Translations under genes and position numbers: made by a program
From: Liolophura sinensis
Lineage: Eukaryota > Mollusca > Polyplacophora > Chitonida > Chitonidae
Reading direction: 5' to 3'
Assembly: GCF_032854445.1 (NCBI RefSeq)
Contig: NC_088297.1
Coordinates: forward strand, 612,169 to 676,168
DNA: 64,000 nucleotides
Notes under the pieces: model-generated
Databases searched by the model: none
Told to the model about the DNA's origin: nothing
Seen by the model: only the letters and a program-made list of their open reading frames with translations
Part shown: positions 1,019 through 58,800 of the stretch, piece after piece
How the letters are laid out: each line of letters opens with the position of its first letter
Position numbering within the stretch: the first letter of the stretch is position 1

Positions 1019-1086
1019 CTAACGCCTTTGTAGCTTTTTGATCATTTTCATTGTTTTCTGCATCATTGGGGCTGGTGCCTTCATCA
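1019..1086 (-). CDS. ELOA: Elongin-A terminal coding exon 11
   Basis: This short last exon encodes [19 protein letters not shown] then RR and a TAG stop at 1021-1019. It is the counterpart of the KKIAPMMAKTIKAFKN C-terminus of human elongin A. The upstream G plus its first two bases make a Val codon. Confidence 0.93.
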
Positions 1087-4000
1087 CTGAAAAGAGAAAG
1101 TAAAAGAATACACAGTTTACAGTCAGGAAGACACTTTGGCGTATAGCCTTACATCCACTCTGAGTCTCAGACACACCCTCTAAGGACACTGCCAGTTATG
1201 CCCCTGCGTACATGATATCGAGACAGAATTGCCTCACTTTGAGTCTCAGACACACCCTCTATGGACACTGTAAGCTATGCTTGGTATACACAAGAGCCTG
1301 GCGCCCAACTCAACTCCATTTGACGACTTCATCGAGTCGTAACCGCTCGTGTGTGCGACATAGTGAGCTGAGTTGGATGACATTTTAAGCTCTTGTGTAT
1401 GCCATGATTTAAAGACTTGAACAAGACATAAGACAGTGTTGACTAAGACTGACTCACCTCTGCGTGGAGCTACAGGAGCTGTGTCCATGGCGAGGCGACT
1501 CTTGAGACTCGATCTCTGGTAACCAGCTGGGTTAGGTTTGGACCCTGAGGGGCTCATGTCCACTGTAGCCGTCCCATACTTCATCTGTTTTCGTCTCACA
1601 TCTCGCGGCGGTTTGGCAACAGTGTCCACATATGCGAGCTTGGTGAGACGCACTGAAAATAAGAGTTCATTTATTTATTTATTAATTTATTTGACTGTGG
1701 TTTTACACGGAACACAGAAATACTTCAGCCAGAATTACAGTGGGAAGAAACTGTGCAGAGCCCACAGGAAACAAACGAAAACAAACAAACCATCTGCAAG
1801 TTGCTGTTAGGGCTTCTTCCATACATCTCAAGTAGTGTAAGTTTGAGTGCATTAATGAGAGGAGCCTGAGTCATTGCACTGCGCTAGAACACCAACAAGT
1901 TGACCATAGAGGCCTCTTTCAAACATTAGGACACATCCTGAACTGCATATTAAGAAATAGCATGACTCCTTAAACATGTAACTATAACAAACCCTTGTTT
2001 GACTCTTCCCTGTTTTCTGCCACCATAATGCTGGCCACCATCATATAAGTGAAATAATCTTGAGTACATTGCAAAACACCAACCAAATAAATAAATAGAT
2101 AAAACGCTTGATCACTGCTCTCTTGTCTGTTAAATTCGGGTTTCAGGTTAACAATTACGCTAACACACCTGGTGCCTTCCTCGCCTCTTCTGAAGCTGCA
2201 ATGTTAGCCTTTAATTTCTGAAGCTTCGCCTCTCTTTCATCATAGCGTCTCTGTCAAAAACAAATAAAATCTGAAATCTTTTTTTTTTTCACTCCCCTCG
2301 TCTATTTCAATACACCTGTGAGTGAGAAAACCTGTAAACACGTTTACTGTGCAGCCTCACTAAAACATATTTGCAAAGACACCAGGCATGAAGCCTCACT
2401 CAATCGCAATGTACTGACACTGGGCTGACCTGTGCTTGGCATATACCCTTATTAAACAAATCCAAAATTCACTCAAGAATCCCCTTTAATCTGTGTGAAA
2501 CTTCTTGTGACAGGGCGAGTCCATGCCCCCAAAGTGCGCCACAACTGAAGTATTGTGCAGAAGACACCAGACATGACACCGCAACACCATCACATTATAC
2601 TGACACCGGGCAAACTAGTCCCGTTTCCTTGCTCTAACCTCTCAGTGTTGAGCGCAAAGCGAGACAGCAACAAGTGCCATTTTTGGTAAGACCAGAACCG
2701 GGTCCTGCATCTTACATTTAGGCCACCGAAGCAGTCATGCCAAGAGAGACGTCTCAGATCATTAAGCGTAGACTAATCCAATATGGGTGGACGTTAAACT
2801 GTCTTCAACAAACTTCATGTACAACAACCTGAATGACTCAACAAATGTTCTCGACAATTTAGCGCCACCAAGGTTTCAAGAACATTGCAGGCAGGCGAAT
2901 CTCCGAGGGTCTTGTTTGAGGTTGGGATCGCTGCATATACTGCAGGGACAGACAACTTCTTTGTCAGAGCAAGTTGTCTGCCATAAGCTTTATGTAAGAT
3001 CACCTTCGTATCAGAGTGCTCTTTCACAAAAGGAGCTTTTCGTTGACTTTCGTCGTACATAATGTCACCTTATGGCATTATAACCTAGGCAAAATCTTTT
3101 CAGAAAAACACTTACCAGAAAATATGACTTAATACAAAGTTTTATGAAAGTGGAGTCAGTGGAGGTAGTGAGGCGCATCACAAAAATTCCCTGTACAAAG
3201 TTGGGATTGAACCCATGTCTATGGTTTGTTTCCTTACCAGATACAGTTCTCGCCAGGATTCCATCTCGTCTGGTTTGGCGCCCCGGAAATCCCGGTTACA
3301 CAAAATCACCCACAGCTCATCCGTCTCACCCAAAAATTGCTGAAAGAAAAAAATCCATATAATTCAGCCTTTTTGCATTTGATTGGTGTTTCACTCCATT
3401 GCAAATAACATCCCAATGATTCAATGAAGGTTCTATACTGACAACAAAAACTGAGCAGATCTTCATAGCCAAATACTGACCATTCTGAAGAGAATATTTA
3501 CTATTTCTATTTTCAGAACCAAACCACAATCTCAGTTATGCCCCAGTTATTCCAAGTTATTCAGATTTATAATTTATCTGTACACAAAAGTCATTACTGT
3601 AAATGTATAAATAAACGTAATTTATGCACATTTTGGATTTAATTTTGGAGACAAAACTACATTTGCTGGATTGGTCAATTTCTGGGCCTCACAAAAAGTA
3701 TACTTTTATCAGTCTACACAGAATAATGCCTTCTGCTTGAATACACACCTTGCAAACACGCAAAAATGCTGAACAATTACTCAGTACCTAATTCTTCTAA
3801 TTTTTGGAATAGATATTAGAAGAGCTGGAAACAAAGAATTACATTTCTATCCCAGTTTTTTTTTTTGGGGGGGGGGATGTAAAGTTGTGAATATATGTTG
3901 TTCCATGGATGGACCAACCATGTGCTAACAGACACTGAGTATTCCTGCTATGATTGTACGTATATTGGCATAAAAATGCAGATCAGGTGTCCAAAAAATT

Positions 4001-7000
4001 AAAGGAATTATGATATATGCAGATCAAGCCTTTTGGAAGCACACATATTGTGAAGTAAACACACGTTGTCCCTTAAAGGTCTAAGCATCCAGGATAGCTA
4101 CATGTATGTCACATGAGAACAAAAACGGCCATAATTAAATCAAAAACAGACAGAAAGTCCCTGAATTCAAACTTGATGTGTAAGTTGGTATGGTGAACCA
4201 TAATTTATGAAAAAGAAAAGAAAAAAAAAGCGGTCTGGAAAATTATCAAAGTACAAAAAACTGGATAAATATGGCCATAATTCTGTGAAAAAAAAATAGG
4301 CAAAACTGATGCAAAACAAAAAGATCACCTGCCAGCATCACACATGGAGTGAAGCCATGTACCAAATTTCAATTTTAACATGAAATGTTTTGTAATCCAG
4401 AAAACTGATTTGGGAAGGACCAATGTGACTGTTCCCTGCTGCACCAAAATGGGACGAATAAAGTGTTCTCAGAGAACTCCCAACTTTGTATGTATTGTTG
4501 GTATCTCAAGAACAGAATGGCTTCAGAAGAACTTAACATTTTTTTTTTACCTAAGCAGCCTCTATACCTGAATGCATTCCACTGATATGTAAGTCATTTC
4601 ACCACACTCAACACCCAAAAACTACCAACGTAAGAAATCCAGTGTTATTGTAGTCATAGAAGCGGAGGAATTTACTGACTGGTGGAATGAACGAGTTGTG
4701 CAACAACAACACTCGTGTTTTTGTGGATTTTTAGGAAGATTTGTGGATGATAAGGACTGAATTTGGGCAATCTTAATTATACAGGTATTAAGATGGAGTG
4801 CTTAAATCAGACTCACTGGATTGTAGTCTTCAAGTCTGTACAACTGTTCAGCAGAGCATTTCTCTAGGACAGGCTTCAGAATGTAATATGGTACACCTCC
4901 TACATAGTCCAGACCTGTTCAAAGAGAAACACTGATGACTGTAACAGGACAAAGAGTACACAGACAGGCATCAGAATGTAATATGGTACACCTCCTACAT
5001 AGTCCAGACCTGTTCAAAGAGAAACACTGATGACTGTAACAGGACAAAGAGTACACAGACAGGCATCAGGATGTAATACAGTACAACACCTACACAGTCC
5101 AGACCTGTTCAAAGAGAAACACTGATGACTGTAACAAGACAGACGACACAGACAGGCATCAGAATGTAATACAGTACAACACCTACACAGTCCAGACCTG
5201 GAGTAGACCTACATTTAAGTAAAGGTGATTTGCATAGACAATAATAAGACAGAGAGTACACAGACAGGCATTAGAATGTAATATGGTACACCTCCTACAT
5301 AGTCTAGACCTGTTCAAAGAGAAACACTGATGACTGTAACAGGACAAAGAGTACACAGACAGGCATCAGGATGTAATACAGTACAACACCTACACAGTCC
5401 AGACCTGTTCAAAGAGAAACACTGATGACTGTAACAAGACAAAGAGTACACAGATAGGCATCAGCATGTAATACAGTACAACACCTACACAGTCCAGACC
5501 TGTTCAAAGAGAAACACTGATGACTGTAACAAGACAGACGACACAGACAGGCATCAGAATGTAATACAGTACAACACCTACACAGTCCAGACCTGGAGTA
5601 GACCTACATTTAAGTAAAGGTGATTTGCATAGACATAATAAGACAGAGAGTACACAGACAGGCATTAGAATGTAATATGGTACACCTCCTACATAGTCCA
5701 GACATGTTCAAAGACAAACAATGATTACTGTAACAAGGCAAAGTGTACACAGACGACCAAAAGAATGTAATATGGTACACCTCCTACATAGTCTACATGG
5801 CTCATTACTTCATGTCATGTAATTCTAAATTTTCAAAAGCATAAGAAAAATGGCCAATTACAGAGAAATCGTGTATCACAGAGAAATGGCCTATTACAAA
5901 AAGATGGCCTATTACAGAGAAATGGTGTGTCACAGAAAAATGGCCTATTACAAAGAGATGGCCTTACAGAGAAATGGTGTATCACAGAGAAATGGCCTAT
6001 TACAAAGAGATGGCCTTACAGAGAAATGGTGTGTCACAGAGAAATGGTGTGTCACAGAGAAATGGTGTGTCACAGAGAAATGGCCTATTACAAAGAGATG
6101 GCCTTACAGAGAAATGGTGTGTCACAGAGAAATGGTCTATTACAAAGAGATTACCTATTACAGAGAAATGGTGTGTCACAGAGAAATGGCCTATTACAAA
6201 GAGATGGCCTATTACAGAGAAATGGTGTGTCACAGAGAAATGGCCTATTACAAAGAGATGGCCTATTACAGAGAAATGGTGTGTCACAGAGAAATGGCCT
6301 ATTACAAAGAGATGGCCTATTACAGAAAAATGGTGTGTCGCAGAGAAATGGTCTATTACAAAGAGATGGCCTATTACAGAGAAATGGTGTGTCACAGAGA
6401 AATGGCCTATTACAAAGAGATGGCCTATTACCAAGAAATGGTGTGTCACAGAGAAATGGCCTATTACAAAGAGATGACCTATTACAGAAAAATGGTGTGT
6501 CACAGAGAAATGGCCTATTACAAAGAGATGACCTATTACAGAGAAATGGTGTGTCAGAGAAATGGTCTATTACAAAAAGATGGCCTATTACAGAGAAATG
6601 GTGTGTCACAGAGAAATGGCCTATTACAAAGAGATGGCCTATTACCAAGAAATGGTGTGTCACAGAGAAATGGCCTATTACAAAGAGATGACCTATTACA
6701 GAAAAATGGTGTGTCACAGAGAAATGGCCTATTACAAAGAGATGGCCTTACAGAGAAATGATCTATTAAGGAAAAATGGCCTATTACAGGTTTATTGTCT
6801 GCTTCAAAAAGCCCCCATGGCTACTTCATGAGTGCACACCAGACACTTGTGTCTACACTGTACTTACCATCAATATTGTCCATCAGCACTCTCATGCAAA
6901 GCTCATACAAGGACACCATGTCTACAAAAGATGATCAAAAAAAGCCCATCATACAAGGACATTCTACATAGTGTAAGTACTAGTTTTACAAGTAAGTACT

Positions 7001-10000
7001 AGTTTTACAAGTAAATACTAGTTTTATAAGTAAGAAAGACTACTTGTTTTTGCTTGGAATTACATGTAGATATGTATATCAGAATGGATTGTTTTAAGAA
7101 AATATGAGTAATACAACCACATAACAGGTGGCTGAGCTCAAGCAGTGGAAGCCAGAAGGCTGGACAGACATGCTAATTTGTTCGCTTATTTCATCAGTGT
7201 ATTATGCATTTATACAGTGGAGACCAGCAATATGGTGGAAGGAAAACCGAGCAGAGGTCAGGGGAAACCCATGAAATTATACTTGAATAGATGAATGTTG
7301 TAAATAATGTCAAACTTTACAATCAGACTGAGGTCTGATTGAATGTATATGTATGTATTTAAGTTTTGAAATTTATCTTCATGCTTTTCCAATCAAATGA
7401 CAGCGAGGAGTGATCAGGTATGTGTACACATACTGTGTCTTCTTGTGGCAAAGTCCATGCAAAGTCCTGTCGCCAATGAATGAGTCGTGCTGGAGACACC
7501 AGACATAACACCCGCCCACTCTTATTATACTGACACTGGGCCAACCAGTCCTGTTTCCTTGCTCTAACCTCTCAATGCTGCCAAGCAAGTTAGCAACAAG
7601 TACCATTTTTGAAGTCTTCGGCATGAACCCAGGTTTGAGTGAGTGAGTGAGTGAGTGAGTAACGTCGTACTTAACAATTTTTCAGTCATATGACAACGAA
7701 GGAAACCTTAGAGTGCATGTAATGTGCCTCCTTCTTGCAGGACGGATTTTCAATCCTCTTTTATCTAGTGCTGCTTCACGGAGACGCCTTACCGAAAGCA
7801 AGTAAGGCGCCCCAGCCGAGCCATTTTACTGATATGGGTCAACCAGTCATTGCACTATCCCCTTCATGCTGAACGGCAAGTGAGCATGTTACAGCTTCCT
7901 CTTTTAAGGTCTTAGGCAGGACTTGACCCAGGATTGACCCTGGATCTACTGCTCCTGCAGCGAACCTAGGTTTGAACCCAGGTCTCCTGGCATACGAGTT
8001 AAAAGCCACAGATGAATCAAATTTCATATGATTGGTGTTCAACACTGTAAAACTTTTTGTAAGATGGCAGTCAGGTGAAAGATCATGAAACAATGTCCAG
8101 ACATCAAGTAGTTTGATTTTTTTTTTGGTTTTAAGGTATCAGATGCTGTGGTGGTCTGTAGTGACACACAGGGTAAAGGTGAGGTAACATGCATATCTTA
8201 TTGCTGGAAATCTAGCAGTCTGCAGTACTGCTTGATTCTAACGATATATCTGGCACAGATGTGGGTCGGAACATTGCTGGAAGTCTAGCAGTCTGCAGTA
8301 CTGCTTGATTCTAACGATATATCTGGCACAGATGTGGGTCGGAACATTGCTGGAAGTCTAGCAGTCTGCAGTACTGCTTGATTCTAACAATATATCTGAC
8401 ACAGATGTGGGTCGCAACATTGCTGGAAGTCTAGCAGTCTGCAGTACTGCTTGATTCTAATGATATATCTGGCACAGATGTGGGTCGGAACATCGCTGGA
8501 AATCTAGCAGTCTGCAGTACTGCTTGATTCTAACGATATATCTGGCACAGATGTGGGTCGGAACATTGCTGGAAGTCTAGCAGTCTGCAGTACTGCCTGA
8601 TTCTAACGATATATCTGGCACAGATGTGGGTCGGAACATTGCTGGAAGTCTAGCAGTCTGCAGTACTGCTTGATTCTAACAATATATCTGGCACAGATGT
8701 GGGTCGGAACATTGCTGGAAGTCTAGCAGTCTGCAGTACTGCTTGATTCTAATGATATATCTGGCACAGATGTGGGTCGGAACATCGCTGGAAATCTAGC
8801 AGTCTGCAGTACTGCTTGATTCTAATGATATATCTGGCACAGATGTGGGTCGGAACATTGCTGGAAGTCTAGCAGTCTGCAGTACTGCCTGATTCTAACG
8901 ATATATCTGGCACAGATGTGGGTCGCAACATTGCTGGAAGTCTAGCAGTCTGCAGTACTGCTTGATTCTAATGATATATCTGGCACAGATGTGGGTCGGA
9001 ACATTGCTGGAAGTCTAGCAGTCTGCAGTACTGCTTGATTCTAACGATATATCTGGCACAGATGTGGGTCGCAACATCGCTGGAAGTCTAGCAGTCTGCA
9101 GTACTGCTTGATTCTAACGATATATCTGGCACAGATGTGGGTCGGAACATTGCTGGAAGTCTAGCAGTCTGCAGTACTGCTTGATTCTAACGATATATCT
9201 GGCACAGATGTGGGTCGCAACATTGCTGGAAATCTAGCAGTCTGCAGTACTGCTTGATTCTAACGATATATCTGGCACAGATGTGGGTCGGAACATTGCT
9301 GGAAGTCTAGCAGTCTGCAGTACTGCTTGATTCTAATGATATATCTGGCACAGATGTGGGTCGGAACATTGCTGAAAGTCTAGCAGTCTGCAGTACTGCT
9401 TGATTCTAACGATATATCTGGCACAGATGTGGGTCGGAACATTGCTGGAAGTCTAGCAGTCTGCAGTACTGCTTGATTCTAACGATATATCTGGCACAGA
9501 TGTGGGTCGGAACATTGCTGGAAGTCTAGCAGTCTGCAGTACTGCTTGATTCTAACGATATATCTGGAGTTCTAATTGTTTCCCCAATTATTCGGTAAAT
9601 GCAAAACCATAGCCTTCATGTACAATACACGAATTTCTTCAGTGCTAACTTTTCTGGGGAAATCAATTTAGGTACTAAACACAGAGTGAGTGAGTAAGTG
9701 CTTGGGGTTTAATGACGTGCCTCAACAATTTTTCAGTCATACGACGAATAAGGAGTCCTTAGGGAGTATGTAATGTACCTCCATGTTGCAGGACTGAGTT
9801 TTGTGGACAATGTTTATTGGTCTTTCAACAGATATATAATTCACATTTATATACGTTTGGGGATTTTTTTCTTGCCTTTTATCTTGAGGTAATTAGCCTT
9901 AATTGTGTAGATTTCGCATATACTTGATCAAATATAACGTTACAATCGGTAACATTTTTTTTTTCCTGAACAAAACATAGGCTTATGCAAGCTGACTCAG

Positions 10001-26312: not shown

Positions 26313-29300
26313 GTAAGTATACGGTCATTGGACAGCACAGAGACATTGCGGAGAACATGTAGGCCTACAAAAAAAAACCCTCAAGGTAAATGTCAGTGAC
26401 ACCAGATGCTGACATGAACGTCCGTGCAACTGTGACCCGTTTTTCTCCGTGGCTGAAGTGGTCAGCACGCCAGCACAGCGCAATGACCCAGCAGCCTCTC
26501 GCCAATGCGATCACTATGAGTACAGCTCATGCTGGCTTCCTCCCCGGCCGTACGTGGGAAGGTCTGCCAGCAACTTGATCGTAAGTTTTCCACCATAATG
26601 CTGGCCGCTGTCGTATAAATGAAAATTTTCTTGAGTACGGCCTAAAACATGAATCAATCCAAAATCAGTCTCTCTGGGCACCCTATATACATCTACGTTC
26701 GTATTAACTTTACACTCGTGGGGAATTGTCGGTACACCGCAATAACAAGCTGTGTTTTTACAATAAAGTTTGCTGGCGTGTAGTTTGGACTACTGTGAAT
26801 TTTTCTGCAGGTGAGCAGCTCTCTGTAAATTTACAGCCACATGCGTAGACGTTGTTACAAAAACCAGATGAAAAAAGCTTGGTGAGATTCTGAATGTTGA
26901 TGTTTGCATATACCAAGCTTTCTGTAAAATTCAGTACAGGGCATTTTATATAGTTTGCCATTTGGTCTTAAGTAATTAGTTTTACTGTAGTCATGGGTAG
27001 CTTTTAGGTATGATTAGCTAAGGATTTGGTATTGTGAGGTTATAGATATAATTAGGTCATAGGTTTGATTAGTTCTTAGGTATGATTGGTTCTTAGGTAT
27101 GATAGATTCATAGGTATGACATGGCCCCAGGTATGATTAGGTCTTTGGTAGGACATGATCTCAGTTATGATTAGGTCTTAGGTGTGACTGGTATGATTGG
27201 GTCTTAGGTAAGATTAGATCTTAGGTATGATTGGTTTTGGGTATGATTGATTCTTAGATGTGATTGGTTCTTAGGTATGATTGGTTCTTAGGTATGATTG
27301 GTTCTTAGGTATGATTGGTTCTTAGGTGTGACTGGTTCTTAGGTATGATTTGTTCTTAGGTGTGACTAGTTCTTAGGTATGATTGGTTTTTAGGTAGGAT
27401 TGGTTCTTAGGTATGATTAGGTCTTATGTAAGACATGGTCTAAGGTATGATTTGGTCTTAAGTAGGACATGACCCCAGGTATGATTTGGTCTTACGTAAT
27501 ACGTGGTCTCAGGTATGATTAGGTCTTAGGTAAGGCATGGTCTCAGGTATGATTAGGTGTTAGGTAAGACATGGTCTCAGGTATGATTAGGTCTTAGGTA
27601 AGGCATAGTTTCAGGTATGACGAGGTCTTAGGTAAGACATGGCCTCAGGTATGATTAGGTCTTAGGTAAGGCACGGTCTCAGGTATGATTAGGTTTTAGG
27701 TCGGACGATGTCTTAGGTCGGACATGATCTCTTGTATGATTAGGTCTTAGATATGACGAGGCCTTAGGTATGAGCAGGTCTTAGATATGATATCGTCAGT
27801 ATGACGAAATCTTAGGTATGACGAAGTCTTAGGTCTGACTAGGCCTTAGATATGACGATATCTTATGTAAAACAAAGTCTTAGGTAAGACGGGTCTTGGC
27901 CAAGACGGGGTCTTAGGTAAGACGAGGCATGATCTTAATCTTAAATATGACGAGGTCTTAGGTATAACCAAGTTTTGGGTACGATCAGGTCTTTGGTCTG
28001 AAAAGATCTTAGGTATGACGAGGTCTTAAGTATGACGATGTCTTAGGGCTGACGAGGTCTTAGGTCTGGCGATGTATTAGGTCTGGAGAGGCCTTAGGTC
28101 TGACGATGTAGTAGATCTGGCGAGGCCTTAGGTCTGACAAGGTCTTACGTATGATAAGGTCTTAGGGCTGACGAGGTCTTAGGGCTGACGAAGCTTTAGG
28201 AATGACGAGATCTGAGGCACGATAAGATCTTAGATATACATGTAATTATTTCATTGGTATGATCAGGTTTGCGAGACTGACACTCCAATCTTTCCGTAGT
28301 GTGATAATGGCAGCGTCATGAAGCATATACCACAGCACTCACTCAAGACTTAACCAATGATTTGTTTCATGTTACAGAATCTCCGCACTGTTTATTTCCG
28401 GAATGGCGGGTGTCTTTATTTTCACCAGCTACATCGGCTCAGGGAATTTGACACTTTTGATGCTGGAGAAAGGAATTTCGGCAGACCTAACTAGAACAGA
28501 GGCGGAAATGTGCGTCCCTAAGACGCCTCTTATCGTCGTCATAGACTGGTCTGGGTACAACATCGAAGGACCTAAGGCGTATTTAGCCGAGGGTTGTTTG
28601 GTTACTCGTGACCGCTCACTCCTTAACCACAGTCAAGCGGTCCTTATTACGCACGGCAGACAGCGCAAAAAGGATTTCCCCAAATTTCGCCGCCCTAATC
28701 AACGCTGGATTTGGTACATGGATGAGAGTCCATATAACGGTTTCTACGGGCATGAATATGGTTACAAAGCCATCAGGGATATGTTCAACTGGACAATGAC
28801 ATATCGCACTGTATCGGAGGTTCACATACCGTACGGGTGGACAACGCCTCGCGAGACACGAGTACCGATTCCTAGCTCCATCGGTAACCGCTCTGGTGTA
28901 GCTGTGACAGTTATGTCGAACTGTAAGTCTTTAGTTCACAACGACCGCTTGAACTACGTGCTCGAACTGCAAAAGTATTGCGGCGTGGAAATCTACGGTA
29001 GGTGTGGAAATAAGATATGCGGCAGATATGAGAAAGGTTTGCCAATGACAAACTGTCAAGAAGTCGAAAAATTCTTGTTTTATTTGGCCTTTGAGAACAG
29101 CGACTGTAAAGAGTATATAACCGAGAAATTGTTCAGTCATGGATTCAGTATGGGCGCAGTTCCGGTGGTTATGGGCGCCCCCAAAGCGGACTATATCGCG
29201 ATTACTCCCCCAAATAGTTTTATACACGTGGAGGATTTTACCGGCCCTAAACAGCTGGGGGAATACCTGACTTTCTTGTCGAAGAACAAAACAGAATATA

Positions 29301-29467
29301 TGAAATATCACCAATGGAGAAGGGATTATATAACATCGTATCGCATACAATACGTGGATGATGAGCCCGTGTGGCAGGCTTTGTGTAGAGCGCTGAAGCT
29401 TGACACAGGGGAACCGAAGAGATATACAGATCTGGCACAATTCTGGACAACAGAAAACTGTTCTTAG
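26251..29467 (+). CDS. Alpha-(1,3)-fucosyltransferase, GT10 family, two coding exons
   Basis: The enzyme transfers fucose from GDP-fucose to N-acetylglucosamine-containing glycans in the Golgi lumen (family knowledge). Exons 26251-26312 and 28378-29467 join through a GTAAGT donor and a TGTTACAG acceptor to give 383 aa plus stop. The topology is type II: a 20-residue cytosolic tail (MSFTDKWIGWLG...), then a hydrophobic anchor VISALFISGMAGVFIFTSYI at 21-40. The catalytic region shows MDESPYNG (135-142), FNWTMTYRTVSEVHIPYG (157-174), MSNCKS...LELQKY, and the GT10 signature FYLAFENS...EYITEKLF (255-273), followed by AVPVVMG and FIHVEDF. Several N-x-S/T sequons (NLT, NHS, NWT, NRS, NKT) fit lumenal glycosylation. 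Length is normal for the family. The exact acceptor (core alpha-1,3 versus Lewis type) cannot be told. Without exon 1 the large ORF would start inside the anchor, so the spliced start is preferred. Confidence 0.93.
26440..26665 (+). mobile_element. SINE family A (fucosyltransferase intron 1)
   Basis: Head TCCGTGGCTGAAGTGGTCAG to tail CGGCCTAAAACATGAATCAA, with a deletion in the centre. Confidence 0.9.
27000..28255. repeat. Degenerate GGTATGATTNGGTCTTA minisatellite (fucosyltransferase intron 1)
   Basis: About 15-18-bp monomers (GGTATGATTGGTTCTTA, later GGTCTTAGGTATGACGA) fill over 1.2 kb of the 2.07-kb intron. Monomer type drifts gradually along the array, as expected of old replication slippage. 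It ends about 120 bp before exon 2. Confidence 0.9.
28378..29467 (+). CDS. GT10 fucosyltransferase coding exon 2 (anchor, stem and catalytic domain)
   Basis: A 1090-nt exon that starts after GTTACAG and runs to a TAG at 29465-29467. It contains the whole lumenal enzyme, including FYLAFENS and EYITEKLF. No frame break is seen. Confidence 0.94.
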
Positions 29468-33631: not shown

Positions 33632-34404
33632 TCAACTCTTTGCAGCAACGCGTACAAAAACAATGTCTAAATGCATCTCTAAAGTTTGTTGACATGACAA
33701 AATATATGACAGGGTGAGACGCATGGTTAGGCAGAGCATTAGACTGCTAATACAAACGTAGATGAAGTTTGATTTCGAATCCAGTGTACGCCAAGCGTCA
33801 GTGTCGTAAAACCTCACGAGGGTTTGAACTTTAAAGGGGAGGTGACAAACTATGAAGATGATTACTACGAGAACAAGCATCAGGATGATTCGGGAACGGG
33901 ATTTGCGCCTTGCCCTGGTTCCCAGCCCCTCACAATGATTCTTGGACACCCGATTCCTTAGAGCCAGGATCATTTTACCGCAAAGGGTTGCCAGAATAGG
34001 AACGGGGACGAAGACTGAGACGCAAATCAAGGCGGTTTGGTACCACATGACCCAAGGAATGTCAAAGGCGATGTAGCAGTACGTTCCCTTAATGGTGGAA
34101 TTTGAGCCTAGGATACTTTGCTGCACGGGAGCGATCCAAGGTTTGTGGTAGCCTATGTCGTGGACGCCGTCGGAAAAATTGTTGGCGTGGATTTCTTCGT
34201 ACCTCGCGGCGTACCCGAACGGAATTGACACGGTTACTGTGATGATCCAAATGAGCAGGAGTACGAAGCAGACTTTTGGACGAGTCCACATACCGATGGT
34301 CCTAAGGGGGTGACACAACATCGTGTACCGCTCCACCCCTATCAGCAGAAATGTCAGGTCGCCACACACGGAAGAGCCTCTTTCGATGGAGCTGATGATT
34401 ACGC
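33632..34404 (-). CDS. GPCR coding exon 2 (TM3 to C-terminus)
   Basis: Starts after TTGTTTCAG at 34404. It holds TM3-TM7; the uninterrupted frame stops at 33632. From about 33740 the other frame, running to 33618, matches a GPCR TM7/helix 8 better (see findings). Confidence 0.8.
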
Positions 34405-35506
34405 CTGAAACAAGACCAAAGCAATAATGGATCAGAGTGGTTTTCCTGGGGAGCCTTTCTTGCCAGAAGGAATTCAGGTCCACGCTGTGTAGTTTATTGC
34501 TCTTCTTGGCTTTGCGATGACGATTTGCGCAAACTTAACATAGTACTCATACGGAATACAAGAGAACATAGTCACTACGACTTGGGCCCGTATCTTCATA
34601 ACTCATAAAAAGATACCTCGTTAATCTTGATCAGAGATATGTTTCATTCTTCCCAGCCTGCTTCGAGAGATACAGATAAATGCTCTTGCATTCACGAAAC
34701 CTGAAACTCGATCTTGTCGAGTGTGCTGTCCTCAGCATGTCAAAGCTGTTTAACGGGGCCTACGTGGCCGAGATGCTTAGCGTGTCAGCGCGAGGCAATG
34801 ACTATGGAACCGCTCACCAATGCGGTTGCCATGAGTTCAAGTCCGGCTCATGCTGGCTTCTTCTCCAGCTGTACGTGGGAAGGTCTGTCAACATCATGAG
34901 GACGGACGGCCGCAAGCTCTGTCCGGTTTCCTCCCACCACAACGCTGGCCGCCATCTTATAAGTGAATTATTCTTGAGAACAGTGTAAAACACCAATAAA
35001 ATAAATAAATCTCCTAAGACGGAAGAACACACCAACTTCATCAGAACTTCTGGATTTATACCTCTGTGACTGGTTCATTATCTTATCAGAAATATAGTTA
35101 TACTTCCCGATGAGTGGGTCTTACGTTGGGTTATCATTTGTGGTATGAAGACTGTTAGAACATGAATTCATCAGTTAATCAATTGTTCAATCATTCAATG
35201 AATCAGTTCATAAAAAACGAATGTTAACTTACACAGACTCCTTCCCAAGATAGAATGATCACAGTTGTGAAGATCCCGTAACGTGACGATCGGTTGGAAA
35301 GTCAACGCCATCAAATCCGCCAGAGCCAGCGATGCCAGGCACAGATTGAACGAAGTGCGCATGCTCGGCAAGGCCAGAACGAGGGTGATAACGAGGAAAT
35401 TTCCCACCACTCCTATGATGCTGATTCCCGCGAAGAGGCACGTTATCAGAATCTTAGCCAGAGGACTTAGAGTCCAGGCGTCAACATCTGTATGATCCAC
35501 GTCCAT
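33632..35506 (-). CDS. Rhodopsin-like (class A) orphan GPCR, two coding exons, TM7 frame disrupted
   Basis: Exons 35506-35233 and 34404-33632 join at a Cys codon (T|GC) via GTAAGT and TTGTTTCAG, giving 348 codons as read. The ATG is in a strong context (GTCACCATGG). Seen: TM1 with GNFLV (N36), TM2 with LALAD (D64), the TM3 Cys92 and an ERY motif (116-118) in place of DRY, TM4 with Trp144, an extracellular-loop Cys (TYCY), Pro in TM5, and CHLP (278-281) in place of CWxP in TM6. In TM7 the open frame loses the family pattern near residue 317. The frame offset by one base carries HPVIYFVMS (NPxxY-like) and an FRDAFRHCF helix 8 with Cys residues, ending at a TAA at 33620-33618. Ligand and subfamily are not recognised. 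Confidence 0.85.
34757..35010 (+). mobile_element. SINE family A, head to tail on plus (GPCR intron)
   Basis: Starts GGGGCCTACGTGGCCGAG, box B-like GAGTTCAAGTCC, ends ACACCAATAAAATAAATAAA. It occupies a third of the GPCR intron. Confidence 0.92.
35233..35506 (-). CDS. GPCR coding exon 1 (N-terminus to start of TM3)
   Basis: 274 nt, with ATG at 35506-35504. It encodes a short acidic extracellular tail without signal peptide, TM1 and TM2, ending LGRSL plus one base at GTAAGT. Confidence 0.85.
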
Positions 35507-46800: not shown

Positions 46801-49800
46801 TGACGTAATACTAGCTTTTTGCCATTTAACTCGCATATAGATTGCCTGACTTCATTGTGGATCTATGAATCCATTCGCCGAATGGATCATGAAAGGAACT
46901 ATTTCGCCGAACTATTGCAGTGTCACTCTGTGTCAGTGCAGTGTCCCTCTATGTCACTACTGTGTCCCTCTATGTCACTACAGCGCCACTCTGTGTCAGT
47001 ACAGTGTCACTCTATGTCACTACAGTGCCATTCTGTGTCACTACAGTGCCACTCTGTGTCACTAAAGCTTCACTCTGTCACTACAGCATAACTCTGCAAA
47101 ACTGCACTGTCACTCTGTGACACTACAGCATAACTCTGCATCACTACAGTGTCACTCTATGTCACTACAGCATCACTACAGTGTCACTCTGTGTCAGTAC
47201 AGTGTCACTCTGTGTCAGTACAGTGTCACTCTATGTCACTTCAGCCCCACTCTGTGTCACTACAGCGCCACTCTGTGTCACTACAGTGCCACTCTGCGTC
47301 ACTACAGTGTCCCTCTGTGTCAGTAGAGTGTCACTCTGTGTCAGTACAGTGTCACTCTGTGTCAGAACAGTGTCACTCTATGTCACTACAGCGCCACTCT
47401 GTGTCACTACAGTGCCACTCTGCATCACTACAGCTTCACTCTGTGTCACTACAGCGTAACTCTGCATCACTACAGTGTCACTCTATGTCACTACAGCTTC
47501 ACTCTGTGTCACTACAGCGTAACTCTGCATCACTACAGTGTCACTCTATGTCACTACAGCTTCACTCTGTGTCACTACAGCGTAACTCTGCATCACTACA
47601 CAGTGTCACTCTATGTCACTACAGCGTCACTCTGCGTCACTACAGTGTCACTCTGTGTCAGTACAGTGTCACTCTGTGTCAGTACAGTGTCACTCTGTGT
47701 CACTATAGCCCCACTCTGTGTCACTACAGCGCCACTCTGTGTCACTACAGCGCCACTCTGTGTCACTACAGCGCCACTCTACGTCACTGTGTGTCAGTAG
47801 AGTGTCCCTCTGTGTCACTGCAGTGTCACTGTGTGTCAGTACAGTGTCACTCTATGTCACTACAGCGCCACTCTGTGTCACTCTATGTCACTACAGTGCC
47901 ACTCTGCATCACTACAGCTTCACTCTGTGTCACTACAGCGTAACTCTGCATCACTACAGTGTCACTCTGTGTCACTACAGCACCACTCTGCATCACTGCA
48001 GTATCACTCTGTGTCAGTAGAGTGTCACTCTGTGTTAGTACAGTGTCACTCTATGTCACTACAGACCACTGAAGAATCTCATGTTCTAAAACCAAATAAA
48101 TCAAACTATTTTTCTGGGCAGTATTTAATGGCCTTTCATCTGAAGTACACTTAATTTTAGTGTTTAGTTCAGTACACACCTTGTGAGGGCAGTAACATCC
48201 CCATTGTACGCTCCAAACAGCAAGTTGACAATATCCTGCGCTTTAGAGTCATCTCTTCTTTTACGAGGATCCAGTTTTTTGGCTGTGTGTTTTAAGTTGT
48301 CATAGTTGTGGAAGTTGAAAATGGAAACAAGATCCTGAAATAATAATCACATTTATAATAAAAAAATAATTAAACATATAGAAAGAAGTTAATATTGCAA
48401 TAAAACTACAAAAAATGTAGCAATATTTGTTTCTCTGTGGCCTAGTGGTTAGCCTGCTGGGGCCCAAGACCAACCACCCACGAACCTCTCACCAATGCAG
48501 TTGCTGTGAGTTTAACACCAGCTCATACAGTCATATGTGGCAAGATCTGGCAGCAAGCTGCGGATGGTCATGGGTTTCAACCGGGTTTCTCTCACCATTA
48601 TGCTGTTTGGCGTTGTATAAATGAAATATATTCTTGAGTACAGTGTAAAACTCCAACCAAATAAAGAATTCAATAGCAATGCTACACTCTACTGTATGTA
48701 ATATATTTCACTGGGAGCCAGAGATTTACGTTGTATTTACACAGATACCAAGTGAGGTTTTCAATCAAAACTCATTGATTTATTTGATTTGATTGCTGCT
48801 TAACATCAAGCCACAAATTTTTCTCGTAAATGATGGCAGTCAGTTTATGGTTCAGGGAAAGCGGAGTGCCAGGTGTGCGTGCCAGGTGTGCGTGCCAGGT
48901 GTGAGTGCCAGGTGTGAGTGCCAGGTGTGAATGCCAGGTGTGAGTGCCAGGTGTGAGCCACAGGCCTTTGGCAAGTTACGGACAAAATTTCCCATATGCT
49001 ATGGGCATATAGGCATTACTGACCAGTTATCGTAAGCAAGGCCTTACAAACAGCTAGAGCAGTTTCAAACTCTTCGACCTCCAATGCTACAGTTACTCTT
49101 ATCAACACACCAGTACTTCAGAAGAACAGTGACTCAGCATCCAGTTCACAGAATAAACTTAACGGCCTTTCATCCCCCATGTGGACCTAAATAAAATTAA
49201 CATCTACAATTTTATTCAGTTCGAAGTGAATGTTTTCATGAATTTCTGGTTTTCTTTCTGATCCAGTAAATATGTCATCAAGAGAAACATCTACTGGTAT
49301 CGTCCAGATATCCCTTCCATCAGTCACTTTTGAACAAAAGATTCATTCTGCCCATAATAGATCAAGAATACATTTATTTATTTATATCTTATTGGTGTTT
49401 TATGCCCTGCATTATAGTGGAAGGAAAGCGTGCAGAATCAGGGGGAAAGCTCAAGGCCATCTGCAGGTTGCTGGCAGACCTTCCTAGATACAGCCAGACA
49501 GGAAGCCTTCATGAGCTGAATTTGAACTCACAGGGATCGCAATGGTGAAAGGCTCCAGCGTCATTGCAGTGCACTGGCGTGCTAACCCGCTCAGCTAAGG
49601 GGGCCCCCGCCAAGAATAGATACATGTATGATATAGCTTCTTCCTAAACAACAGTGGTTAATTCCTCAAATATTTAAAGCCTTACATCAAAGTTTAAATC
49701 CTCAATGTTATGCACAGACTATGGCTTGAGAGGTCCCAACTGTGACACATCACGCTTCAGATGGAAGTTCAGATTCCTCACTCTGTACTTCATTTGAATG

Positions 49801-52800
49801 AACAAATGAATGCTTAAGGTTTACCGTTGTACTTCAAAAATTTTCAGTCATATGACAATGAGGACTCATTAGGTGTGTGTGCATATACTGCGTCGTCATG
49901 TGGCAGGGCGAGTCCATGCTGCTAAAGTGCTGCCAACACTGAAGTATCATACCGCAGACATCAGACATGATACCCCACCCAGTCACATTACACCGACACC
50001 AGGCCAACCAATCCTGTTTCCTTGCTTGAATCTCTCAGTGCTGAGCACCTAGCGAGGCAGCCACATGTAACATTTTTTAAAAAAGCCGTTGGTATGACCC
50101 GACCCAGGTTTGATCTTGGGTCTCCCGACTTCGAGGCAGACTCTTTAACCATGAGGCCACCGAAAATACTGCTTAACAGCACAAATTCTGGGTGCCACCG
50201 AAAATACTGTTTAACAGCACAAATTCTGGGTAAGTTATTGTACAACAAATGTCAACTAAAATAACAGACAGGAACATACCAAATCTAATGATTAACATCT
50301 TGACTTAAGTCTTCCACTTATCGCTTTGTCATCTCAACAGGTCGAGTTATATTTAAGAGATCCTAATGCCAACAATCCGATGATGTAACAGCAATTCTCA
50401 ACAATTCCCTTCACCTGATTAATGTTCTGTGGAAACAAAATGGCCACGTAAAAACCAAGGTGTCTGCTTTATGAACGGGAGCAGAGTTAGATGATCCTAT
50501 ACTATGGCAATAAGCAAGCTGCAAAGTGACTTAGCACAAACAGGGAGATAATCCAGCAATAATCTGACATAAATATAGATATTGTCCAACCTATGTAACC
50601 AATGAAAATAGAAAAGGATGCTATACTAAAATATTGCTGATAAATCTACGCAGTTTTATTAGGATGCAAAGTGCGTTCATGCACAATCAGGGGAGATAAT
50701 TCACACGTTTGCCTCACCTCACAGAGTTGCCTGCCCCTGCAGCTGTTCCCCCAGCTGTCTAATGGAGGTGACCACAGACACACTCCCATCACATTGGGCA
50801 CGACAAGGAGAATGCCCCCCGACACGCCTGACTTGGCAGGTAAACCCACCTGTAATCAACACAATGGTGTAATCAATGTGCAGTTACAAAATCAAAACTG
50901 GTGCTCTCAAATTATACCCCATGTCTGCCAACATAATACTGGCTGCTGGCGTATGGGTGAAATATTCTTGAATATGGCGTAAAACACCTTTCAAATAAAT
51001 AAATAAATAAATAAATCAAATTAAGTCTGCAGGTTTTTAATTTCAGTTAAAATATGATACCGAGGCATGCTGCTGTCGTTGACGACTGAACTTGAGTTCA
51101 CAGATGGTGAGTACCGGTACCTTGTTAAGGCATACAGCGTCAAGCGCTTCCTTTCCGTTAACCAACCTATGCTGTTTTTCATATTTCACGAAGATAAATT
51201 TTATGCATATCCCGTGACCCTTTGGTACTAAGAAACAGCTGTCCCGGTGCAGCCTGATTTTTTTTCCCCCACAGCAACAAACAATAGAAGTAGTCCGGTA
51301 TGCAGTTGTACTTTTTCATTGGATAAGCTAGTCAATAAAAGTTCAGTTGACCAATCCAAAGTTCGGGTTATTTATAAATTGAAAACTTACATCACTGTTG
51401 TTCTATCACTGACACAGGCATATTATGGGATAATAAACATTGTACTACCACAATGAACCGAAGAGGGATAATATAAATGATGTCTTTTTTACATTATCTT
51501 TAATCTTTACTTGACTATTGGCACACAAAAATGAATTCGGGCCTACCAGAAGTCAAACAAATGGCCTACCGTAAAAGCAAATTGTCCTGAGTAGTCGTAC
51601 ATGCCACAGGAGTGCATGAGAGACAGAGTGTTTCTGACAGACTCAGAAATGACCACACGCTCTCCCGTGATTGGACAGATCCCGCCATTCGCCAATGTCC
51701 CTGCCATAAGACTGGCTGAGTCACATGTCACTTCCACAGAGCATAACTGTAACAGAGATAAGGTAACTAATGTTAGATCTTGCCAGTCTCAAGAAGCTCT
51801 CATGAAAAAATTCACACTCAGAGCACAACTGTAACAGAGATAAGGTAACTAAGTTTAGAGCTTGCCAGTCTCAAAAAGCTCTCATGAAAGAATTCACACA
51901 GAGAGCACAACTGTAACAGAGATAAAGTTACTGTAACTGTAGACTTTGCCAGTACTAAAAAAGTTTTCATGAAAGAATTCACAGAGCACAACTGTAACAG
52001 AGATAAGGTAGCTGTAACTTCTAGACCTCGCCAATACTGAGAATTTTTAATGAAAAAACTCACACAATGCTAAGCTGAGGATGTTAAAAGCCTAAGCAAA
52101 TGTAAGTGAGAATATTCAGCCCAGAAACAAAAACTTTGACAAAATTTGACACACAAAGGCCTACGTGAAGTTGCTTCTCTATGTGTCTTGCTGCAACAAC
52201 GACACTGTTGCACTGAGGCATTTCCTTCCACAGTTTATAATGTTTGCAATCAATATACAAGTAGACGGCACAGGTAAAAAATTCAGAACATGTCACATAG
52301 CTTGCCGTCCACAGAGAATCAAATTTTCACTGAGCTATGATGACCATTGGGAATTATTAAAGAGGCTATACCAGAAATTCTTTTTAATTCTATTTAATAA
52401 ATCAAACATAATTATCTCTATTTATCAAGAACAGCTCAAATTCTTGACTTTCAGTAGATGTCACACTAACACCTACATTATTCATAGCATTAAAATGATT
52501 CTGAAGTTTGTGATAGCAGATACATGTATAAAGCTGGTAGCGTATATAAAGTTTGTGACAGTAGATACATGTATAAAGCTGGTAGCATGTATACAGTTTG
52601 TGACAGTAGATACATGTATAAAGCTGGAAGCATGTACACAGTTTGTGACAGTAGTTAAAATGTATAAAGCTGGTAGTGTGTATAAAGTTTGTGATAGTAG
52701 ATACATGTATAAAGCTGGAAGCATATATAAAGTTTGTGACAGTAGATACATGTATAAAGCTGGTAGCATATATAAAGTTTGTGACAGTAGATACATGTAT

Positions 52801-55800
52801 AAAGCTGGTAGCATATATAAAGTTTGTGACAGTAGATACATGTATAAAGCTGGTAGCATATATAAAGTTTGTGACAGTAGAGACATATATAAAGCTGGAA
52901 GCATGTATAAAGTTTGTGATAGTAGATACATGTATAAAGCTGGTAGCATATATAAAGTTTGTGACAGTAGATACATGTATAAAGCTGGAAGCATGTATAA
53001 AGTTTGTGATAGTAGATACATGTATAAAGCTGGTAGCGTATATAAAGTTTGTGACAGTAGATACATGTATAAAGCTGGTAGCATGTATAAAGTTTGTGAT
53101 AGTAGATACATGTATAAAGGTGGTAGCATATATAAAGTTTGTGACAGTAGATACATGTATAAAGCTGGTAGCATGTATAAAGTTTGTGATAGTAGATACA
53201 TGTATAAAGCTGGAAGCATATATAAAGTTTGTGACAGTAGATACATGTATAAGGCTGGTAGCATATATAAAGTTTGTGACAGTAGATACATGTATAAAGC
53301 TGGTAGCATATATAAAGTTTGTGACAGTAGATACATGTATAAAGCTGGTAGCATGTATAAAGTTTGCGATAGTAGATACATGTATAAAGCTGGTAGCGTG
53401 TATAAAGTTTGTGACAGTAGATACATGTATAAAGCTGGTAGCATATATAAAGTTTGTGACAGTAGATACATGTATAAAGCTGAAAGCATATATAAGGTTT
53501 GTGATAGAAGATGCATGTATAAAGGTGATAGCATATATAAAGTTTGTGACAGTAGATACATGTATAAAGCTGGTAGCATGTATAAAGTTTGTGACAGTAG
53601 ATACATGTATAAAGCTGGAAGCATATATAAGGTTTGTGATAGAAGATGCATGTATAAAGCTGGTAGCGTATATAAGGTTTTTGATAGAAGATGCATGTAT
53701 AAAGCTGGTAGCGTATATAAAGTTCGTGACAGTAGATACATGTATAAAGCTGGTAGCGTATATAAGGTTTGTGATAGAAGATGCATGTATAAAGCTGGTA
53801 GCGTATATAAGGTTTTTGATAGAAGATGCATGTATAAAGCTGGTAGCGTATATAAGGTTTGTGATAGAAGATGCATGTATAAAGCTGGTAGCGTATATAA
53901 GGTTTGTGATAGAAGATGCATGTATAAAGCTGGTAGCGTATATAAGGTTTGTGATAGAAGATGCATGTATAAAGCTGGTAGCGTATATAAGGTTTTTGAT
54001 AGAAGATGCATGTATAAAGCTGGTAGCGTATATAAAGTTTGTGACAATAGATACATGTATAAAGCTGGTAGCATATATAAGGTTTGTGATAGAAGATGCA
54101 TGTATAAAGCTGGTAGCGTGTATAAAGTTTGTGACAGTAGATACATGTATAAAGCTGGTAGCATATATAAAGTTTGTGACAGTAGATACATGTATAAAGC
54201 TGGTAGCATATATAAAGTTTGTGACAGTAGATACATGTATAAAGCTGGTAGCGTATATAAGGTTTGTGATAGAAGATGCATGTATAAAGCTGGTAGCGTG
54301 TATAAAGTTTGTGACAGTAGATACATGTATAAAGCTGGTAGCATATATAAAGTTTGTGACAGTAGATACATGTATAAAGCTGGAAGCATATATAAGGTTT
54401 GTGATAGAAGATGCATGTATAAAGCTGGAAGCATATATAAAGTTTGTGACAGTAGATACATGTATAAAGCTGGAAGCATGTACACAGTTTGTGACAGTAG
54501 TTAAAATGTATAAAGCTGGTAGTGTGTATAAAGTTTGTGATAGTAGATACATGTATAAAGCTGGAAGCATATATAAAGTTTGTGACAGTAGATACATGTA
54601 TAAAGCTGGTAGCGTATATAAGGTTTGTGATAGAAGATGCATGTATAAAGCTGGAAGCATATATAAAGTTTGTGACAGTAGATACATGTATAAAGCTGGA
54701 AGCATGTACACAGTTTGTGACAGTAGTTAAAATGTATAAAGCTGGTAGTGTGTATAAAGTTTGTGATAGTAGATACATGTATAAAGCTGGAAGCATATAT
54801 AAAGTTTGTGACAGTAGATACATGTATAAAGCTGGTAGCATATATAAAGTTTGTGACAGTAGATACATGTATAAAGCTGGTAGCATATATAAAGTTTGTG
54901 ACAGTAGATACATGTATAAAGCTGGTAGCATATATAAAGTTTGTGACAGTAGAGACATATATAAAGCTGGAAGCATGTATAAAGTTTGTGATAGTAGATA
55001 CATGTATAAAGCTGGTAGCATATATAAAGTTTGTGACAGTAGATACATGTATAAAGCTGGAAGCATGTATAAAGTTTGTGATAGTAGATACATGTATAAA
55101 GCTGGTAGCGTATATAAAGTTTGTGACAGTAGATACATGTATAAAGCTGGTAGCATGTATAAAGTTTGTGATAGTAGATACATGTATAAAGGTGGTAGCA
55201 TATATAAAGTTTGTGACAGTAGATACATGTATAAAGCTGGTAGCATGTATAAAGTTTGTGATAGTAGATACATGTATAAAGCTGGAAGCATATATAAAGT
55301 TTGTGACAGTAGATACATGTATAAGGCTGGTAGCATATATAAAGTTTGTGACAGTAGATACATGTATAAAGCTGGTAGCATATATAAAGTTTGTGACAGT
55401 AGATACATGTATAAAGCTGGTAGCATGTATAAAGTTTGCGATAGTAGATACATGTATAAAGCTGGTAGCGTGTATAAAGTTTGTGACAGTAGATACATGT
55501 ATAAAGCTGGTAGCATATATAAAGTTTGTGACAGTAGATACATGTATAAAGCTGAAAGCATATATAAGGTTTGTGATAGAAGATGCATGTATAAAGGTGA
55601 TAGCATATATAAAGTTTGTGACAGTAGATACATGTATAAAGCTGGTAGCATGTATAAAGTTTGTGACAGTAGATACATGTATAAAGCTGGAAGCATATAT
55701 AAGGTTTGTGATAGAAGATGCATGTATAAAGCTGGTAGCGTATATAAGGTTTTTGATAGAAGATGCATGTATAAAGCTGGTAGCGTATATAAAGTTCGTG

Positions 55801-58800
55801 ACAGTAGATACATGTATAAAGCTGGTAGCGTATATAAGGTTTGTGATAGAAGATGCATGTATAAAGCTGGTAGCGTATATAAGGTTTTTGATAGAAGATG
55901 CATGTATAAAGCTGGTAGCGTATATAAGGTTTGTGATAGAAGATGCATGTATAAAGCTGGTAGCGTATATAAGGTTTGTGATAGAAGATGCATGTATAAA
56001 GCTGGTAGCGTATATAAGGTTTGTGATAGAAGATGCATGTATAAAGCTGGTAGCGTATATAAGGTTTTTGATAGAAGATGCATGTATAAAGCTGGTAGCG
56101 TATATAAAGTTTGTGACAATAGATACATGTATAAAGCTGGTAGCATATATAAGGTTTGTGATAGAAGATGCATGTATAAAGCTGGTAGCGTGTATAAAGT
56201 TTGTGACAGTAGATACATGTATAAAGCTGGTAGCATATATAAAGTTTGTGACAGTAGATACATGTATAAAGCTGGTAGCATATATAAAGTTTGTGACAGT
56301 AGATACATGTATAAAGCTGGTAGCGTATATAAGGTTTGTGATAGAAGATGCATGTATAAAGCTGGTAGCGTGTATAAAGTTTGTGACAGTAGATACATGT
56401 ATAAAGCTGGTAGCATATATAAAGTTTGTGACAGTAGATACATGTATAAAGCTGGAAGCATATATAAGGTTTGTGATAGAAGATGCATGTATAAAGCTGG
56501 TAGCGTATATAAGGTTTGTGATAGAAGATACATGTATAAAGCTGGTAGTGTATATAAATTTTACAAACAATATTTCCAATTTTGAACGGTGCACAGATAA
56601 AGCTGATATTTTGTGAAAAGTAATTAGTTTGGGTATTCTTAAAATACATGTATAAAGCTGGTAGCATATATAAGGTTTGTGATAGAAGATGCATGTATAA
56701 AGGTGGTAGCGTATATAAAGTTTGTGACAGTAGATACATGTATAAAGCTGGTAGCATATATAAAGTTTGTGACAGTAGATACATGTATAAAGCTGGAAGC
56801 ATATATAAGGTTTGTGATAGAAGATGCATGTGTAAAGGTGGTAGCGTATATAAAGTTTGTGACAGTAGATACATGTATAAAGCTGGTAGCGTATATAAGG
56901 TTTGTGATAGAAGATACATGTATAAAGCTGGTAGTGTATATAAATTTTACAAACAACATTCCCAATTTTGAACGGTGCACAGATAAGGCTGACATTTTGT
57001 GAAAAGTAATTAGTTTGGGTATTCTTAAAAAATAGCAAAAAATCAACTGGTTTTGTACTGATGGATTTTTGGCCCAAAATATCTGGTATTGCATCTTTAA
57101 GGGTCACCATGGTTACTGAGATCATGGGGAGGTGGCACCTGGTTACAGACAGTGAGACAGTAGATGTTCATGAGCACAAAAACGTGTATCAAATGAACAC
57201 ATTATCACCTCACCTGAAAGTAAAAGTCCATCGTCTCCATCAGGTTGGTTCCGTGAGGAAAGCACTGAAACCAAACAGAAATTACACGCTCTATATAGTT
57301 GTAAAATCTTCTATAAACATATAAAAAAATGTCTAACAACCTGAAGTTCCGCCGATGGCTAAGTTGCACATTTTGACTGATTCTGATAGTTCTAACGGGC
57401 GTTGTTTGGGAGGTCGGATGACACTCTACTGTACAAATCTTGTTTGGGAGGTGTGGGTGAGTGAGTGCTTGGGGTTTAACGTCACACGTAACAGTTTCTC
57501 AGTCATTTGATGACGAAGGAGTCCTTAGAATGTATGTAATGTGCCTCCTTGTTGCAGGACAGACTTCCACCATTCTTTTATCTAGTGTTGCTTAACTGGG
57601 ACGCCTTACCGAGCCATTATACTGATACCGGTCAACCAGTCATTGCACTATCCCCTTCATGCTGAACGCCAAGCGAGGAAGTTACAACTTCCTCTTTTTA
57701 AGGTCTTAGGTGTGATCCGACCCAGGATTGACCCTGGATCTACCGCTCTCGAAACGGACGATCTACCAACTGTGCTATCGGGGCTGGGAGGCAGGATGAT
57801 GATACCCTACTGTACAAATGTAAGCTAAAGCACCAAAAGCAGTATTTTATAATATTCCTTTGCCTTCACAAATGCACTGATTGGGACGAAACTTTAGGTC
57901 ATTCATCACAAATGTAAATTCAAAATTATTTTGAGGTAAAGTGTAGAAAATCAGCTTAGCTTTCCAATTTCCAGGCGTGTATTTATTTATTTGCTGGATC
58001 TTTAACACTGTATTAAGAATTTTTTTCACTTATACTATGGTGGTCAGTACCATGGGTGGTGTAAACTGGAGTGCCAGAGATGTCTCACGCAATACATGGC
58101 AACCTTTCCCAAGTGTGTTGTGCCAATAAGCATTTTTCATCGGGTGTAGACTGGGGTGCCAAGGGTAACCCACTGATCTTTCACACATTATATGGCAACC
58201 TTTCCCAGGTGTGACGTACCAATAAGCATTTTTCATTTGATGTAGACTGGGGTGCCAAGGGTAACCCACTGATCTTTCACACATTATATGGCAACCTTCC
58301 CCAAGTGTGACGTACCAATGAACATTGTTCCTTTGGTGTAAACTGGGGTGCCAAGGGTAACTCACTGATCTTTCACGCATTATATGGCAAACTTTCCCAA
58401 GTGTGACGGACCAATAAGCATTTTTCATTTGGTATAGACTGGGGTGCCAAGGGTAACCCACTGATCTTTCACGCATTATATGGCAACCTTTCCCAAGTGT
58501 GATGGACCAATAAGCATCTTTCATCTCGTGTAGACTGGGGCGCAAAGGGTAACCCACTGATCTTTCACACATTACATGGCAACCTTTCCCAAGTGTGACG
58601 GAACAATAAGCATTTTTCATTCAAATAATGCTTGCATGAGTAAAGCATGTTGGAGGGATGAAAACGGCAAAGGCTTGAATAAGCTTACATCCAAGGTTCC
58701 AAGGTTCCAAGATAGGGGTTCTATGTATTTTAGTTCATAATTCAATCAGATGTATAATTAACATGCACAAGTATATGTGGATAGATATTTGTCAATTCAC

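Follow-up and report, generated by a model that had tools for sequence, protein, structure and literature searches.

Tandem copies of an intron-exon boundary, most with an intact acceptor, in front of elongin-A exon 7 in the chiton Liolophura sinensis

Directly upstream of exon 7 of the elongin-A gene (minus strand), the genome of a chiton that a published correction renames as Liolophura sinensis (PMC12441733) carries a tandem array in which the intron-exon boundary is copied nine times. The window, by which we mean the whole 64-kb stretch of DNA analysed, holds one version of this array (version A), and a second, longer version (version B) lies elsewhere on the same contig. We consider it likely that the array is a neutral minisatellite that arose by local duplication and grew on the intron side, with the exon-proximal acceptor used, the decoys skipped and the two versions representing two alleles. 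The array belongs to a known repeat kind that recurs in this genome; judging from the open-licence papers listed, its presence in a mollusc is new.

The gene was recognized from its peptide, as exons 6, 7 and part of 8 matched Pfam Elongin_A (PF06881) with 61 bits, and a query of exons 6-7 matched PDB chain 8oev_M, named Elongin-A, with E=2e-14. The following elongin-A exons were located in the window (here and below, a slash marks a splice junction or its equivalent):

6868-6921, minus strand: exon 6, 17 residues plus a split codon, with donor ATG/GTAAGT
4817-4914, minus strand: exon 7, 98 nt, the exon-proximal end of the array, beginning with the codon split from exon 6
3238-3339, minus strand: the next exon located downstream, no local copies found
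1458-1652, minus strand: a further downstream exon, no local copies found
1019-1086, minus strand: the final coding exon, stop codon included, no local copies found

Local copies of exons 6, 8, 9 and 10 were sought at E 0.01 and none was found; at the same threshold, the sole local copy of the big elongin-A exon, which has a single match in the genome, was an internal 78-nt repeat. A short copy of the start of exon 6 (TGTCCTTGTATGA, preceded by TGTAG) lies just above the exon-6 acceptor at window positions 6940-6968 on the minus strand. Its score was reached by 0.3% of 2,720 random windows, the copy having been chosen post hoc, and it went unreported in the BLAST test at E 0.01.

A complete unit of the array consists of about 45 nt of exon 7, slightly more than the ~40 exon bases originally described, together with the intron end that carries the acceptor. 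Units follow each other in steps of 93, 95 and 111-112 bp, so that the ~95-bp unit of the original prediction is present but not the only spacing, and a higher-order period of 395 bp is superimposed (Tandem Repeats Finder scores of 900 for period 95 and 1675 for period 395). The tandem arrangement itself was described correctly, with nine copies instead of eight, as a truncated first copy starts near 5798. The units of version A and the neighbouring repeat are:

4915-5009, minus strand: unit A9, 95 bp, acceptor CAG/GT intact, exon part identical to exon 7 at 44/45 positions
5010-5104, minus strand: unit A8, 95 bp, intact acceptor, VGVVLYY type
5105-5197, minus strand: unit A7, 93 bp, CAG intact with a different tract, extra TAG/GT with its first base at 5208
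5198-5309, minus strand: unit A6, 112 bp, intact acceptor, VGGVPYY type
5310-5404, minus strand: unit A5, 95 bp, intact acceptor, VGVVLYY type
5405-5499, minus strand: unit A4, 95 bp, intact acceptor, VGVVLYY type
5500-5592, minus strand: unit A3, 93 bp, CAG intact with a different tract, extra TAG/GT with its first base at 5603
5593-5703, minus strand: unit A2, 111 bp, acceptor lost (CAT/GT)
5704-5798, minus strand: unit A1, exon copy truncated at its 5' end, no acceptor, array edge
5860-6788, minus strand: an 18/54-bp minisatellite in the same intron, unrelated in sequence

Derivation of the array from the exon-7 boundary, as originally proposed, was confirmed by comparison with the first 45 nt of exon 7, to which the nine copies are identical at 36-44/45 positions versus 25/45 for the best match outside the array on both strands of the 64-kb window. 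A genome-wide search with the unit gave 14 matches, all at this locus or in one other cluster on the same contig, a uniqueness that should be taken as a bound since the search skips very common words. A reading of the unit as a dispersed repeat or satellite was considered and is unsupported, since within that bound the unit was found nowhere but here and in the second version of the locus.

The acceptor AG is kept in 7/9 copies of version A. Each of the seven junctions named in the original prediction (5009, 5104, 5197, 5309, 5404, 5499 and 5592) reads CAG/GTCT, the copy at 5703 has indeed lost its AG and reads CAT/GTCT, and all these decoys precede the true site in the order of minus-strand transcription. 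Five of the seven intact decoys (5009, 5104, 5309, 5404 and 5499) equal the true acceptor at 23/23 positions from -20 to +3, which agrees with the view that most decoys are as good as the true site in their immediate context. The other two (5197 and 5592) differ from it at 14/23 positions, have 8 pyrimidines in the 16-nt tract versus 11 in the true acceptor, and each has the further TAG/GT 11 nt upstream. The change from VGGVPYY to VGVVLYY, said to affect many copies, was found in 5/9. Many decoys are identical in sequence to the true site, so the choice between them cannot depend on local strength.

The original suggestion that the decoys might provide alternative coding isoforms is not borne out for simple read-through. 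When exon 6 is joined to any of the seven decoys or to either of the two extra AGs, the reading frame ends at a stop within that unit or the one that follows, and read-through from decoy 5009 stops, out of frame, inside exon 7 itself. Because all nine junctions reach an early stop, coding isoforms appear unlikely without a donor inside the array. By a simple consensus count the true exon-7 donor scores 7/9, and among the 121 GTs in the array two reach the same score (AAT/GTAGGT) and none exceeds it; both overlap the extra TAGs. Cryptic exons may therefore use an array-internal donor, with these two sites as the candidates that match the score of the true donor.

Version B holds 16 copies in a cluster at C3:588075-589669, 29 kb from version A, and carries the same 3' part of elongin-A as the window. 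Its copies retain AG in 13/16 cases and read CAT in 3/16, and their exon parts are identical to exon 7 at 37-41/45 positions. Two stretches of version B have no counterpart in version A: about 275 bp of intron, and a first unit whose acceptor differs. Homology between the versions starts at 590318, the first base past a 200-N gap, which matches 561491, and ends at 590117, the last base before that gap, which matches about 618139, giving an overlap of ~28.6 kb (C3:561491-590117 versus 590318-618139; window positions 1 to about 5971). Given this edge-to-edge homology at one gap, the two versions are most likely two haplotypes, with a small measure of doubt, and the array would be length-polymorphic (9 versus 16 copies). 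Set side by side in the assembly, the two haplotypes probably double the 3' part of elongin-A falsely. A true partial tandem duplication in place of a second haplotype would fit the presence of both versions on one scaffold and a divergence of 17-36 substitutions per kb (1.7-3.6%, five aligned blocks, 18.95 kb in total), which is above the genome-wide heterozygosity of 1.24% given for the published chiton assembly (PMC11068029). We regard it as unlikely, however, as homology bounded by both edges of a single 200-N gap is the pattern of overlapping contig ends, and the big elongin-A exon is single in the genome.

A tree of the units groups both versions by type (A6 with B15; A3 and A7 with B16 and B13; A1 with B9; supports of 0.45-0.92), and from these shared types, at moderate supports, the array probably predates the split of the two versions. 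The decoy nearest to exon 7 is identical to it at 44/45 positions in version A versus 38/45 in version B, which indicates that units have been gained or replaced since the split. Exon 7 of version B (C3:588023-588121) contains a 1-nt insertion that shifts the frame, and the coding state of this version is unsure as a result, the insertion being a likely homopolymer error at a contig end. Version B does lie at a contig end and shows single-base indels, many within homopolymer runs, and this, along with a HiFi depth of only 14x in the published assembly (PMC11068029), could point to repeat units that were collapsed or expanded during assembly. The original prediction had itself raised an assembly artefact as its weak point, a concern now largely answered: the array spans 0.9 kb (1.5 kb in version B) against a mean HiFi read of 8.3 kb (8,347 bp; PMC11068029), a different second version exists, and unit types are common to both. 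An artefact of this sort is exceedingly improbable.

Arrays of the same kind were found at other exons of this genome. We took 24 loci from 50 listed matches to PF00118 (the CCT sample) and 30 loci from 138 kinase matches, and compared the matched stretches of the CCT loci with their own flanks. Donor-side boundary arrays occur at 3/24 CCT loci, two of them at CCT3 exons and the third at a CCT5 exon; the automatic count was four and included a locus (L065) that was set apart after sequence inspection. Another (L062), whose single local copy overlaps the match by 3 nt, was left out of the count. Two of the three, L056 and L064, both lie at C8:53.40-53.41 Mb; L056 has CCT gamma (CCT3) as its best match, and L064 was assigned to the same gene by position. 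The third, L067 at C1:72.04 Mb, is CCT epsilon (CCT5). At L056 the donor CAG/GTGTGT is kept in 10/11 downstream copies, and the first six copies, 66 bp apart, leave the frame open and add 22 residues each, after which 88-bp steps break the frame. At L067 all 6/6 copies keep GTGAGT or GTGAAT at a spacing of 88-111 bp and read-through hits a stop; at L064 the GT is kept in 4/5 copies and read-through stops at once. At the locus set apart, two arrays flank one exon. The one on the acceptor side has a 41-bp unit in about 13 copies, contains 13 TACAGs, takes in hardly any or no exon sequence and stops where the exon starts; the other, with 43 copies of a 27-bp unit, sets in immediately past the exon's donor. 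In every case the site presumed to be the true one is the copy adjoining the full exon, namely the last acceptor in elongin-A and the first donor in CCT3 and CCT5.

Edge arrays were sought at the 30 kinase loci and found at none, in a sample biased towards long or single-exon genes in repeat-poor surroundings; one kinase locus (L039) has a small array (period 15, 1.9 copies) inside the match, away from its edge. In the window, arrays with a period of at least 15 take up 22.3% of the bases; the corresponding shares are 12.3% for the CCT loci and 1.8% for the kinase loci. Arrays were observed at 4/48 CCT exon edges versus about six expected from coverage, a rough comparison in which match ends stand for exon ends and coverage includes the edge arrays themselves. 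Edge arrays are thus about as frequent as random placement would give, and exon edges as hot spots for arrays are unsupported in the 24 CCT loci. The comparison points to the general growth of minisatellites, and not to a special attraction to exon edges, as the source of edge arrays.

Minisatellites that span an intron-exon boundary have been described in amphioxus under the name of mirages (PMC3087553). The elongin-A array has the structure that defines them, a tandem unit lying across the boundary with ~45 nt of exon plus the acceptor, and many but not all of its copies keep the splice signal (AG in 7/9 and 13/16). Copy number differs between the two assembled versions (9 versus 16), whose status as haplotypes we judge from the one-gap overlap. 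The host is a chiton and not a cephalochordate, and the host lies outside the structural definition. Amphioxus as the source was considered and rejected on the molluscan hemocyanin encoded in the genome, with its eight domains in tandem; a search for GFP gave no match either, which counts for little because the controls were equally silent. As portrayed in accounts of the lancelet system, mirages resemble the chiton array in their boundary-spanning unit, in the many copies that keep AG or GT signals, in copy-number differences between haplotypes (6 versus 3 copies in BflGb6), in the local homogenization of units and in the occurrence of both acceptor- and donor-side forms (PMC3087553, PMC3902484). 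The chiton array differs in its mollusc host, in having a single acceptor accompanied by 7 or 13 AG-intact decoys, depending on the version, and in its 395-bp higher-order repeat. Judged by titles and the starts of abstracts, no mirages so named were found outside lancelets among the papers listed from the open-licence PMC subset.

Boundary repeats as such are known outside lancelets, in human, yeast and plants (PMC10809524, PMC4974935), and 792 human introns in 262 tandem repeats have been reported (PMC10809524). Human UBC, VCX3A and others are alike in having tandem units whose AGGT can serve as either site, and the AGGT core is present in 20/20 AG-intact decoys of the chiton (7/7 in version A and 13/13 in version B). 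UBC differs, however, as its repeats are coding monomers, whereas the extra copies in the chiton lie inside one intron and their dual use is putative (PMC10809524). Tandem AG/GT copies also feature in intron gain by AGGT tandem duplication, for which the Rogers model, potato RdRp and fission-yeast 24-bp repeats are cited, and in potato RdRp the acceptor and polypyrimidine tract are supplied by the parent boundary (PMC4974935). Lancelet mirages, too, have been considered as a possible source from which new introns could form (PMC3087553). The chiton copies, in contrast, lie within the existing intron 6, with nothing to indicate that an intron was gained or an exon inserted.

We propose that a segment running from within intron 6, across the acceptor, to ~45 nt into exon 7 was tandemly duplicated, and that the array then grew by duplication of single units and of 395-bp blocks, which could have produced the two length versions with 9 and 16 extra copies. 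Growth would be harmless on the intron side alone, since the rest of the exon and the donor belong to the exon-proximal copy. In exon definition, acceptor and donor are recognized as a pair lying some 100 nt apart. Splicing would most likely pick the exon-proximal acceptor and skip the decoys, because this acceptor is paired with the true donor within a normal exon length (98 nt), whereas a transcript joined at a decoy would contain a premature stop and would be expected to undergo decay. The arrays would be tolerated because splicing takes the exon-proximal copy among near-identical sites. Adh3 data and globin RT-PCR, as reported for lancelets, suggest that splicing proceeds undisturbed by mirages there (PMC3087553, PMC3902484), and by analogy exon definition may be able to decide between near-identical sites in the chiton.

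The early stops after all seven decoys, the identity of five decoys to the true acceptor over 23 nt and the copy-number difference between versions would also fit decoys that serve as poison acceptors, whose controlled use would yield stop-containing, degraded mRNA and whose number would tune the elongin-A level. We find such regulation quite unlikely, as the exon parts have diverged (36-44/45 in the window, 37-41/45 in version B), AG has changed to CAT in 4/25 copies and one copy is truncated, all as under drift, and the CCT3 and CCT5 arrays along with the 22.3% minisatellite coverage of the window suggest a general mutational process. The GT that follows every AG-intact decoy (7/7 in the window, 13/13 in version B) raises another idea, namely that a decoy AG/GT rebuilds a donor that is spliced on to the true acceptor in a recursive, dual-specific manner, making mis-splicing harmless. 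Dual-specific AGGT sites reported from human, enriched in tandem-repeat genes (PMC10809524), lend this some plausibility, but the GT is explained by descent and the rebuilt donor would be weak (CAG/GTCTGG, 6/9 as standing in the array), so we hold it to be very unlikely for elongin-A. A broader form of the idea, in which arrays of identical splice sites are a common feature of chiton genes, tolerated as AG/GT mis-splicing self-corrects through a second splice, and in which the 66-bp array of CCT3 could give an in-frame ladder of 22-residue insertions varying between individuals, appears decidedly unlikely. Decoy-derived isoforms as such are unsupported for elongin-A, while CCT3 may have them.

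The arrays offer natural experiments in how splice sites are chosen, many decoys sharing their core with the true site and differing mainly in position. The numbers available are 7 and 13 AG-intact decoy acceptors in elongin-A, 10 decoy donors at one CCT3 exon and 6 decoy donors at CCT5. Tissue RNA-seq has been published for Liolophura sinensis, from digestive gland, foot, gill, gonad and heart (SAMN35319765-69; PMC11068029). If RNA reads occur only at the exon-proximal copy, site strength could not be the cause and the reads would directly support a positional rule (exon definition); if decoys are in use, copy number should alter mRNA output between alleles. With the chiton, a repeat class that got its name in lancelets now extends to a mollusc.

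Several other features were noted in passing. Further large minisatellites of the window lie at 52504-56562, 8200-9567 and 46918-48064. The window also contains a fucosyltransferase (Glyco_transf_10) at 28403-29467 on the plus strand and a fragment of a rhodopsin-family receptor at 33632-34483 on the minus strand, and the genome carries eight tandem molluscan hemocyanin beta-sandwich domains.
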